Assembly: GCF_009068765.1 (NCBI RefSeq)
Contig: NZ_CP035534.1
Coordinates: forward strand, 806,001-870,000
DNA length: 64,000 nucleotides
Source of the DNA: Sulfurimonas hydrogeniphila
GTDB lineage: Bacteria > Campylobacterota > Campylobacteria > Campylobacterales > Sulfurimonadaceae
Direction: 5' to 3'
Shown: positions 31,342-41,110 of the stretch, piece by piece
How positions within the stretch are numbered: position 1 is the stretch's first letter
How the letters are laid out: every line of letters begins with the position of its first letter
Made by a program: the position numbers and the translations under genes
The notes under the pieces: model-generated
Database searches by the model: none
Seen by the model: only the letters and a program-made list of their open reading frames with translations
Told to the model about the DNA's origin: nothing

Positions 31342-31994
31342 TGAAAATTCTTTTACTGGAAGACGAAATAATGCTAAACGAGTCTATACAGGAGTATCTG
31401 CAGGAGCAGGGACATCTTGTTGTAAGTTTTACAGACGGTCTTGAAGCATTTGAAAATCTTCAAAAAGACGACTATGATTTATTGATTTTGGATATCTCTG
31501 TACCAAATATAGACGGATTGACACTTTTGGAAAAGCTTCATGCCATCAAAATTCATACACCCAGCATTTATATCAGCGCTCTGGTAGATATAGAAGATAT
31601 CTCCCGTGCCTATGATCTGGGATGCTATGATTACTTGAAAAAACCCTTTCACCTAAAAGAACTTGCTTTGAAAATTGACAGAATTTTAACAGACAAAGAT
31701 ATTCCTCTGGTTTTTCTCAGGCTTTCAAAAAACTATATGTATGATCAGGAAAACAATACGCTTTTGTTTCAGAACACTCCCCAGATTCTTACAAAAAAAC
31801 AATCGCAAATTATAGATATTTTAGCCAGGAACAGAAGCAGAATAGTTGATTTTGAACAGTTTCGCATGTATGTATGGGATGAACAAATCGTAGATAATGC
31901 AACCATAAGAGCAGAGATTAACAGACTGAAAAAAAGTTTAAAAGAAGATATTATTGTTAATGTCAGAGGCATGGGATATATGATAGAAAAATGA
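31341..31994 (+). CDS. OmpR-type response regulator
   Basis: 217 residues. Receiver domain with phosphate-accepting Asp51 (LILDIS), acidic pocket LLEDE and conserved Lys in YLKKPF; then a winged-helix DNA-binding domain (about 130-217) ending VRGMGYMIEK. Partner of the kinase, with which it shares TAATG coupling. The most likely targets are the downstream porin and acetate genes. Confidence 0.9.
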   Translation: MKILLLEDEIMLNESIQEYLQEQGHLVVSFTDGLEAFENLQKDDYDLLILDISVPNIDGLTLLEKLHAIKIHTPSIYISALVDIEDISRAYDLGCYDYLKKPFHLKELALKIDRILTDKDIPLVFLRLSKNYMYDQENNTLLFQNTPQILTKKQSQIIDILARNRSRIVDFEQFRMYVWDEQIVDNATIRAEINRLKKSLKEDIIVNVRGMGYMIEK

Positions 31995-32103
31995 GCAGGG
32001 TATTGTTTGTTACATATTGATACACGCCAGAGATTAAATTGCAATTTTTTGTTAAAAATATGAATTGCTACGTTAATGCTATGTTTTGGATTTATGATTA
32101 CCT

Positions 32104-32373
32104 TAAGTGCCTGACAAGAATAAATGACATAATTTAATGAAGAGAAAAAATAGAAGCTACAAGGCGAAAATTCGCAGAAGCTACTAGTAGCTTCAAGGGT
32201 TTTCAACGAAGTTAGGTTCTGTTTTCTCTCTTCACCCGAAGGGCAACATGCAAAGGACTTATTTTCTGCGTTGAACTTCCGTTAACGATGCTAGCATCGC
32301 CAACAAAAGTTCGCCTTGCAACTAAATCCTTTGTATGTTGTTAAATATGTTATTTATTCTTGTCAGGCACTTA
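32104..32373. mobile_element. 270-bp nested-palindrome element (MITE-like)
   Basis: Fills most of the 398-base gap between the response regulator and the porin. Outer inverted repeats of about 33 bases (32104-32137 and 32341-32373, starting TAAGTGCCTGACAAGAATAA) differ at only two or three positions. Inside are two successive stems: 32138-32155 with 32217-32234, and 32244-32261 with 32323-32340. Each loop holds further palindromes (GAAGCTACTAGTAGCTTC at 32177-32194, CGATGCTAGCATCG at 32286-32299). The two halves look like diverged inverted copies of one unit. It encodes no protein. Ends in TA fit a TA-targeting transposon, but a structured RNA is also possible. Confidence 0.65.
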
Positions 32374-32392
32374 TCTAAAAGTGGAGGATTAC

Positions 32393-33826
32393 ATGAAAAA
32401 AATTGCATTAAGTATGTTTGTTACAGCATTGGTGACAAGTGTATATGCTGATTACGACGGTGTAAATATAAAGTTAAAGCACGGTGTTGAAGAGAAACAA
32501 GAGGTGCATGTTCTTTCTGATGACATAAAAGACATGTTTGCAAAAGGAAAAACAAGCGGTCAGATTAGAATGTTTTATGTGGACAGACAGTATCAGGGTG
32601 GTTCAGGGGCAGATACGCACAGAGATGCTGCTGTTTTAGGCGGTCATCTCAAGTTTGAAACAGCTACATTAAGCGGTATTCGGTTGGCTGCGGCTTTTTA
32701 TACAGTGCAGGATTTGGGTATACAGCAACACACTGCCCAGTCACCGGCACTTCTTGGAACCGGATACAAGTCATATTCAATTCTAGGTGAGGGATATCTT
32801 GGATACAGTTTCAGTGAATATGGGCTAAAAAGTGATGCCAAGCTTGGTTATCAGAGATATGACTCTTTAATGATGGGATCAGATGATGCAAGAACGCTTC
32901 CAAATACTTTCAGAGCATACAAGTTTGTAAGCAAGGATGTGAAAAATATTACTCTTCAGATAGCACATGTAGACAGAATCGCTTATGGAACATTCTCAAA
33001 TATCTATTCTGCCGGCGGAATACTTGCCGCTACTTCAGGGTACACTTCAAGAGGGATCAATGCTTCAACAGGAGTACAAACCGGAGAGTATCTGAACTTG
33101 GGACTTGCAACAACCGGAAGAAAAACTGCCGGTGTTACAAATATTCAACTGAAATATACAGCGAAAAACTTTCATGTAGATGTCTCAAATGATTATGCAT
33201 GGAATCTTTACAATACACTCTACGCTGACACAGGAGTCTCCTGGAACTGTCTGCTCAACAGTAATGTAAAACCGTTTGTAAAAGTGCAGATGATTAAACA
33301 AAACAGTGTTGGCGGAAAATATATGCAGTACTCTCCGCTGGGAGGGTCCGGTGAGGTAGATTCTTTTTACTGGGCGGGTAAAGTCGGGGCAAAATATGAA
33401 GGTTTTGCTGCATATATTGCCTACTCCCAAACATCTTCAAACAATGCAGGAGATGATTCTTACAAAAATGCGATACTTACACAGTTTGGCGGCATGCCGG
33501 CATATACTCAAGGTATGGTGACCCGTCATATGTTTTTAGCGGGAACAAAAGCAACAAAAGCTGCTGCTGTCTATAACTTCAAACAACATGGAATCAACCT
33601 TTCAACTGCTGCCTATTATGTCGCTTTTGATACAGATGCAAACTCCGGATACGGTATAGCAAGAACAGCAACAGAAGCTGGATTTGACATCAAATACTAC
33701 CCAAAAGCAGTTGAAAAACTGCAGCTTCGTTTTCGCGGAAATTTTCCCAGAAAATTTGCGGAAGCAACTCCAGGAAGTGACACCGGTTGGAATGAGTACA
33801 GACTCATTGCAAACTATAATTTCTAA
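32393..33826 (+). CDS. OprD-like outer-membrane porin
   Basis: 477 residues. A signal peptide (MKKIALSMFVTALVTSVYA, cleavage after YA) is followed by a barrel of amphipathic strands with Gly/Tyr/Ser-rich turns, ending in NYNF as outer-membrane porins do. It resembles the OprD-type porins of Campylobacterota. The ATG at 32393 has GTGGAGG six bases upstream; an in-frame start at 32360 would lie inside the repeat element. As first gene before DUF485-ActP it probably lets acetate or other small acids through the outer membrane. Confidence 0.78.
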   Translation: MKKIALSMFVTALVTSVYADYDGVNIKLKHGVEEKQEVHVLSDDIKDMFAKGKTSGQIRMFYVDRQYQGGSGADTHRDAAVLGGHLKFETATLSGIRLAAAFYTVQDLGIQQHTAQSPALLGTGYKSYSILGEGYLGYSFSEYGLKSDAKLGYQRYDSLMMGSDDARTLPNTFRAYKFVSKDVKNITLQIAHVDRIAYGTFSNIYSAGGILAATSGYTSRGINASTGVQTGEYLNLGLATTGRKTAGVTNIQLKYTAKNFHVDVSNDYAWNLYNTLYADTGVSWNCLLNSNVKPFVKVQMIKQNSVGGKYMQYSPLGGSGEVDSFYWAGKVGAKYEGFAAYIAYSQTSSNNAGDDSYKNAILTQFGGMPAYTQGMVTRHMFLAGTKATKAAAVYNFKQHGINLSTAAYYVAFDTDANSGYGIARTATEAGFDIKYYPKAVEKLQLRFRGNFPRKFAEATPGSDTGWNEYRLIANYNF

Positions 33827-41020: not shown

Positions 41021-41110
41021 GGACGAGTGGGTGAGTGGCTGAAACCACATCCCTGCTAAGGATGCGTACTGGCAACGGTACCGAGAGTTCGAATCTCTCC
41101 TCGTCCACCA
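41021..41110 (+). tRNA. tRNA-Ser(GCU)
   Basis: A 90-base class II tRNA. Acceptor GGACGAG pairs fully with CTCGTCC (41100-41106), D arm GGT...ACC, anticodon stem CATCC/GGATG with loop CTGCTAA (anticodon GCU, serine AGC/AGU codons), long variable arm GTAC-TGGCAAC-GGTAC, T arm GAGAG-TTCGAAT-CTCTC, and an encoded CCA (41108-41110). The base before CCA is A rather than the G expected for bacterial serine tRNAs. Its 3' end is the left border of two tandem cassettes. Confidence 0.93.

Follow-up and report, generated by a model that had tools for sequence, protein, structure and literature searches.

The window, a 64,000-nucleotide stretch of the Sulfurimonas hydrogeniphila genome (G000, a single contig of 2.34 Mb), carries an OprD-family porin gene followed by DUF485, SSF symporter, DUF294, exonuclease and acetyl-CoA synthetase genes; it also holds a tRNA gene at 41021-41107. 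A palindromic block with nested stems, noticed from the letters alone at 32104-32373, was recovered by inverted-repeat analysis and by the predicted fold (Table 1). It had been placed 20 bases before the porin gene; the adjacency holds, and the spacing is corrected to 19 bases (ATG at 32393). The block parts a conserved upstream segment from GGAGG at 32383-32387 (plus strand, outside the element), presumably the porin ribosome-binding site. The upstream segment contains TGCTATGTT at 32077-32085 (plus strand), which we take to be an extended -10-like motif; the promoter consensus scan of the locus did not report it. If the upstream segment is the promoter, the element forms the 5' leader of the OprD porin/symporter/acetyl-CoA synthetase genes, and judging from this arrangement it probably lies in the porin 5' leader now, where a regulatory effect is a possible consequence of the placement.

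Table 1. Features of the inserted element and its surroundings, in window coordinates
Feature	Position	Strand	Basis
Upstream block kept in relatives at the empty site	32063-32103	+	empty-site alignment
Outer helix, 33 pairs	32104-32137 with 32341-32373		predicted fold
Left TA target-site copy	32104-32105	none	single TA at the empty site in four relatives, TA-element-TA in the window
Left-hand terminal repeat (inverted), made up of the IS630-type end AGTGCCTGACAAGAATAAATGACATA plus an inward extension; 5' half of outer helix	32106-32137	+	repeat, fold, similar G083 IS630 ends
Hairpin A, 37 pairs; more stable as plus strand	32138-32234	+	fold, covariation, strand preference
Conserved internal-loop motif CAAGGCG; hairpin A, 5' side	32160-32166	+	alignment of 38 cores
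Conserved internal-loop motif AACGAAG; hairpin A, 3' side	32205-32211	+	alignment of 38 cores
Central mini-hairpin CCC-GAA-GGG, dyad centre	32235-32243	none	pairs kept across copies
Hairpin B, 36 pairs, diverged inverted copy of A; more stable as minus strand	32244-32340	-	fold, covariation, strand preference
CGTTGAA, inverted counterpart in hairpin B of the AACG-side motif	32269-32275	-	position
CGCCTTG, inverted counterpart in hairpin B of CAAGGCG	32312-32318	-	position
Right-hand terminal repeat (inverted); 3' half of outer helix	32341-32371	-	inverted repeat, fold
Right TA target-site copy	32372-32373	none	empty-site alignment
OprD-family porin gene, heading the downstream set	32393-33826	+	

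The arms of the outer inverted repeat, TAAGTGCCTGACAAGAATAAATGACATAATT and AAATATGTTATTTATTCTTGTCAGGCACTTA, are 94% identical over 31 nt. As had been claimed, inverted versions of CAAGGCGAA and TTCAACG occur at 32310-32318 and 32269-32275 respectively, which makes the two halves diverged inverted copies. The target duplication accounts for the outermost TA of both arms, which leaves 32106-32371 (266 bp) as inserted DNA. The predicted RNA fold of the element has -118.3 kcal/mol compared with -55 (sd 4.6) in shuffles (z -13.7), the fold with DNA parameters gives z -13.1, and 0 of 200 shuffles fold as well under either parameter set. The 266 bp contain no internal ORF of at least 80 aa; a 145-aa minus-strand frame (31769-32206) extends into the element. 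Apart from tRNAs, the window and 20 element loci yielded nothing that reached an Rfam gathering score, and in a further Rfam comparison the best E was about 1, which is at chance level and far below gathering scores.

We looked for a TA target duplication and for empty sites and found both at the window locus, the latter in four relatives. The joined window flanks match uninterrupted in G093 (91%), G043 (89%), G095 (83%) and G101 (66%). The empty site in G093 and G043 is GATTACCTTATCAAA, while the window reads GATTACCT-TA-(266 bp)-TA-TCTAAA, so that one TA has become two. The window element is a MITE inserted at TA upstream of the porin gene, with duplication of the TA. Joined flanks of 17 other insertions were searched in five genomes, and a junction-spanning match was obtained for 14 of them; L005, L092 and L093 had none in these genomes. 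Clean single-TA empty sites were found for nine insertions of three end families (L003, L009, L010, L045, L046, L047 twice, L048b and L098), among them insertions with other ends (TATTGCC.. in L003, AAGTCCTTAG.. in L098). The L039 and L004 junctions have one altered base at a TA copy, L066 has altered bases, and L048a and L044 are ambiguous. TA flanks both sides in 47 of 61 elements with AAGT..ACTT ends (left 54, right 53). The features of bacterial MITEs are thus all present: a short non-coding sequence, terminal inverted repeats, TA duplication with empty sites, and dispersed copies.

The proposed search for copies revealed a multicopy family with BLAST matches in 47 of 100 genus genomes. 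G000 holds six related elements, one of which is full-length and of the window's end family. The common body of the family, which we call the chassis, consists of two hairpins that are inverted copies around CCC-NNN-GGG, about 265 bp in all, with the AAGGC/AACGAAG loop at a fixed offset. A covariance model of its core gave hits at E 1e-6 in 71 of the 135 genus genomes and, in a phylum sample, at E 1e-4 in 27 of 397 genomes, from 14 of 68 genera. The outer inverted repeat, with a span of 263-273 bp, was found in eight genera beyond the window's own. L184 (264 bp) and L193 (270 bp) have such repeats; contig ends truncate L195 and L200, and one genus (L195) could not be judged. Four genera have a solo hairpin only (L196, L201, L203 and L206). 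In three of them it sits between urtD and urtE, as identified by NCBIfam for L203 and L196 and by near-identical frames for L206, and the L201 hairpin sits between clpX and nifN. In a named genome collection 73 contigs contain a 24-mer of the core, all of them labelled Campylobacterales (Sulfurimonas, Sulfurimonadaceae, Helicobacteraceae MAGs, Nitratifractor and unclassified Campylobacterales), and viral contigs gave 0 matches to this 24-mer. Several draft contigs of G078, G025 and G043 break off at or within a chassis, which makes the copy numbers of draft genomes minimum values. At L199 (1430-1700, G102) a solo core hairpin lies within a tRNA cluster (tRNAs at 1006-1310 and 1585-1656); a weak inverted repeat of 271-bp span, which may be chance, surrounds the hairpin and one tRNA gene at the place of hairpin B.

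Comparison of the copies separated the ends from the body. Eighty of 99 stretches were accepted as whole elements (span 255-295, score at least 16; five stretches were without an inverted repeat), and the 19 rejected were contig-end cuts, half elements, duplicates or a 297-bp span. The element span is 256-274 bp in 77 of the 80 and 289-292 in three. Sequence sorts their ends into mutually unrelated groups (AAGTGCC.., AAGTAAG.., AAGTTAC.., AAGTACC.., AAGTCC.., AGGGCACC.., TATTGCC.., ATACCAA.. and TAGACTTCTTGC..); the number of end families stays inexact, scripted end clustering having split some by register. End similarity of AAGTGCC was 0.49 to AGGGCACC and 0.50 to TATTGCC, compared with a shuffled level of 0.47. 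Interior similarity was 0.79 between AAGTGCC and AAGTAAG and 0.78 within AAGTGCC; these end and interior identities hold for families F1-F5 and F7-F9 only, the 13 later-added elements not being in common orientation. Four elements with four different ends (L033, L036, L037 and L075) have in common a derived tip of the hairpin, TTGCACTTATTGTGC or a sequence close to it. The hairpin A core begins at element position 45-57 in 79 of 80, irrespective of the ends; L048a has no core match, yet usual size and fold. These results show that the chassis is a widely common interior of near-constant length, joined to many unrelated terminal repeats. Separately, three palindromes of 45-58 bp in G095 (C18:23505-23562, C85:18866-18922 and C74:68672-68716) consist of two AAGTGCC ends with no interior.

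The fold was tested for covariation across 52 aligned copies, and its helices covary. The alignment held 52 of the 57 near elements, with L013, L047 (twice), L065 and L067 omitted for length. In it 94.5% of cells are paired compared with 83.1 in shuffles, double-changed cells number 638 compared with 183, and 66 of 109 pairs are changed on both sides; 0 of 500 shuffles attain any of five covariation measures. Sliding the partners by 1-3 columns drops pairing to 35-43%, and RNAalifold alone gives 87 pairs, 60 with compensatory change. For the outer helix, covariation is to be expected whenever both ends of a transposon fit one enzyme; hairpins A and B lack such a reason to covary. The central CCC..GGG pairs are kept in 50-52 of the 52 sequences, with a variable loop. 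In the model alignment of 38 cores (40 non-redundant cores minus L013, L017 and L074, plus the window), the A and G of AAGGC are nearly invariant and the AAC of AACGAAG is invariant. Multiple copies and a conserved fold with strong covariation contradict the alternative of a single-copy block with no fold conservation.

Whole elements under RNA parameters showed no consistent strand preference: the plus strand was favoured in 20 of 57 in the near group (p 0.008 towards minus) and in 12 of 23 in the far group. This is expected if the two hairpins favour opposite strands, though it lends no support to an RNA role, and the hairpins were therefore tested apart. On the plus strand, imperfect pairs are G.T in 196 cells and A.C in 20 in hairpin A, and G.T in 18 and A.C in 267 in hairpin B, equivalent to G.T on the opposite strand. 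Counted for both hairpins on the AAGGC strand, G.T amounts to 463 vs 38 for A.C, and all 16 hairpin columns with at least 8 imperfect cells agree in direction. When the hairpins of 93 elements were folded apart, the AAGGC strand was more stable in 182 of 186, with a mean of 8-16 kcal/mol by group; the set included 13 of the 21 phylum-search elements with an outer repeat, the rest duplicating included families. The outer arms alone, unrelated between families, run in the same direction (G.U 181 vs 30 and 98 vs 22), and the cores alone favour the same strand (112 of 114 and 64 of 72), as do DNA parameters (109 of 114 and 69 of 72). The per-hairpin stability, outer-arm and core tests are independent of element orientation. 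Neither a process nor a protein acting on double-stranded DNA can distinguish G.T on one strand from A.C, and the bias therefore points to selection on a single-strand fold, of RNA or of single-stranded DNA, facing inward from either end. Taken with the covariation, the predicted folds suggest that the body acts in some way as a folded single strand. That the chassis works as RNA is a claim to which we give about even chances.

REP/BIME pairs are inverted, strand-specific hairpins and substrates of HUH-type enzymes. The chassis resembles them in its inverted pair of strand-specific hairpins and in CTAC..GTAG at the tip of hairpin A, and differs in its much longer hairpins, its TA duplication and its IS630-type ends. 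The hairpins may be read as acting in single-stranded DNA, for example on the lagging strand or as the substrate of an HUH-type enzyme, not as RNA. The strand-specific fold and the BIME-like inverted pairing agree with this, and DNA parameters do not distinguish it from RNA, giving the same strand preference. The four solo hairpins (L203, L206 and L196 at urtD-urtE, L201 at clpX-nifN) fold better on the operon-antisense strand, a result that does not favour RNA, since a role within the operon transcript itself would not lead one to expect it. However, TA duplication and IS630-like ends suffice to account for mobility, and the near-free tolerance of G.U, the commonest state at several pairs, suits RNA better, so that we consider a single-stranded DNA role unlikely, though the strongest of the rival readings.

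Because the hairpins are inverted copies, a device of this kind would work in either insertion orientation. Transcription from either side would first meet a hairpin in its strong-folding strand. The chassis may thus be taken for a bidirectional transcription terminator or insulator, and this symmetry suits such a role, as do the purine-rich 5' arm and pyrimidine-rich 3' arm of hairpin A. Terminators are usual between convergent genes, whereas among the 65 insertions classified with a rough ORF caller 31 lie in tandem, 31 in divergent and only 3 in convergent context, the convergent deficit relative to divergent being weak (p 0.04). In addition, a consensus scan of the window element gave no terminator-like site, nor a promoter-like site above chance. 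A terminator or insulator function is therefore unlikely, and less probable than the single-stranded DNA role. By the same rough caller, 8 of 73 insertions lie inside an ORF of at least 100 aa, and element orientation relative to tandem genes has no bias (14 same, 17 opposite).

Still less probable is an ordinary MITE with a functionless interior, in which a mutational process, template switching at quasi-palindromes, maintains the perfection of the palindromes. Palindromes are correctable without selection, and most paired cells are indeed Watson-Crick; but strand-blind correction predicts about as many G.T as A.C cells, contrary to the excess seen in the hairpins and likewise in the outer arms, and it would erase loops, yet the unpaired loop motifs are conserved. 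Of the readings first offered, among them a simple MITE and a structured RNA leader, the MITE is upheld by the multicopy family, the TA duplication, the empty sites and the matching IS630 elements in relatives, while a riboswitch-like leader belonging to the acetate operon, for all its very stable fold and its position just before the porin ATG and downstream of a conserved block, is very improbable and as an ancestral leader is ruled out, the element being absent at the orthologous locus in the four relatives, present at many unrelated loci and without an Rfam family at gathering score.

For the MITE, a partner transposase was sought. In the window genome a profile search found no DDE_3 (PF13358) transposase at E 1e-3, and DDE_3 matches at E 1e-8 occur in 13 of 135 genus genomes, compared with 71 of 135 with the chassis core. 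The DDE_3 transposons of relatives (IS630 family, Tc1/mariner-type) end in chassis-like inverted repeats. The G083 element, of about 1.07 kb, has terminal sequence TAAGTGCCTAACCAAAATTAATGTCATA; its end as compared with the chassis, AAGTGCCTAACCAAAATTAATGTCATA, matches the window left arm at 22 of 27 positions, L012 at 24 of 27 and L033 at 25 of 27. In G093 three IS630 copies are identical over about 1.13 kb, and their right end is identical (26 of 26) to that of a chassis in the same genome (L092). The G089 IS630 end matches chassis L095 at 22 of 26, and G089 also has a chassis (L090) of L095's family; the G103 end matches chassis L099 at 17 of 18. Four chassis terminal repeats thus match four different IS630 elements, and IS and chassis co-occur in G093, G083 and G089. 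For a fifth IS630 end (CTAGTACCACTCCC; L161, L171 and L174) no chassis was found; the ends of these three IS630 elements were also seen as CTAGTACCACTCCCATAAACT. In the 14 genomes with other end families, PF13358 matched in 3 (one below the cut-off), with no clear transposon ends there. In a comparison by eye of a single pair, IS L151 and the chassis L092 and L097 seemed alike at the ends only. An autonomous element with the window's own ends was also sought in six genomes and rejected: these ends pair at chassis length in the complete G000 (270 and 183 bp) and in G093 (270-290 bp), with some unpaired ends falling in draft genomes. The IS630 partner was located through the transposase family after this search.

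Because G000 is without an IS630 element, we infer the mobilising enzyme from relatives, and the match between transposon and chassis ends makes mobilisation in trans by IS630-type transposases the natural reading. From its ends and target, the element would have been moved by an IS630 transposase that recognised the ends and inserted it at TA, and it would now be orphaned in the window genome, where the search gave no such transposase. An IS630-mobilised MITE with a folded two-hairpin chassis is, with good confidence, the best explanation of the whole. In the window the chassis would form the 5' leader of the porin/acetate transcript. If it works as RNA, it might for instance subject the transcript to processing, pausing or stability control and so keep near-promoter insertions tolerable. 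A more far-reaching proposal, which we put forward as tentative and think rather doubtful, is that the chassis is the true unit of selection, an ancient structured-RNA module, paired and inverted for use in both orientations, that spreads as a parasite of several transposons by acquiring the ends of whichever IS630 transposon its host has active, and that acts in cis on transcripts, with the urtD-urtE solo hairpins of three genera domesticated or residual.

Movement of this kind has been proposed for RUP, the repeat unit of pneumococcus, with IS630-Spn1 as the mobilising element (PMC2229807, PMC3049150). In the passages of these sources RUP is likewise non-autonomous and intergenic, with IS630-like ends and a TA target, and its two terminal repeats pair with each other in fold predictions. 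It differs in its 107 bp, its one end type and the lack, in those passages, of a reported structure or function signature (PMC2229807), the chassis having about 265 bp, two inverted strand-specific hairpins and many end families. Between convergent genes RUP is over-represented (PMC3049150), and only 3 of 65 chassis lie there by the rough classification. Of the RUP-like characters the element has IS630-matching ends and the TA target, with the partner transposase not found in G000 and seen in relatives; RUP proper is not matched (266 bp in Campylobacterales as opposed to a 107-bp pneumococcal sequence). The Correia/NEMIS elements of Neisseria, as described in the passage used, end in TA, carry terminal repeats about 24-26 bp long and form RNA hairpins able to affect the neighbouring mRNA through RNase III; they differ in length (about 105-155 bp), have one end type and an IHF site in the long form, and no paired-hairpin chassis is mentioned there (PMC2229807). 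CIR repeats of Caulobacter/Brucella have two long arms and a linker in the predicted RNA, but in the same listing no terminal repeat and unclear mobility (PMC2229807), whereas the chassis has an outer helix closing both arms and TA insertion. QMITE1 and QMITE2 of Coxiella are transcribed MITEs and a possible small-RNA source, and QMITE2 has a GTAG palindrome; they differ in direct repeats of 2-3 or 7-11 nt of variable sequence, with no IS630 ends reported in the part considered (PMC5896051). In the open-access literature searched, no description of the chassis family was found. RUP-like movement is thus known, and the open-access passages and listings consulted describe neither exchangeable ends nor a paired strand-specific chassis.

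The chassis reverses a common picture. MITEs are usually seen as decayed transposons with the ends as their sole working parts; here it is the ends that change and the interior that has been retained in several families of an order, showing a covariation and strand preference that would be of no use to a double-stranded DNA parasite. If confirmed, two questions would become testable in ordinary bacteria: whether RNA devices carried by short mobile elements help the host tolerate insertions, and by what route a single non-autonomous element switches its transposase partner. Close genome pairs with and without the insertion (G000 compared with G093 and G043) are natural experiments for this purpose.

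Some further arrangements were observed in G093. At L047 (2047-6309) two inverted chassis about 3.7 kb apart, each about 20 bp over the usual length, flank a sensor-kinase-like gene, and at L048 (1567-2269) a gap of about 160 bp separates two chassis that differ in their ends. A 140-bp stretch on the left side of L092 occurs in at least a dozen copies at 99-100% and is probably an IS, and a palindrome of the GGTACTTTAGTGCCGGC type near L093 has many copies in G093, G000 and G043.
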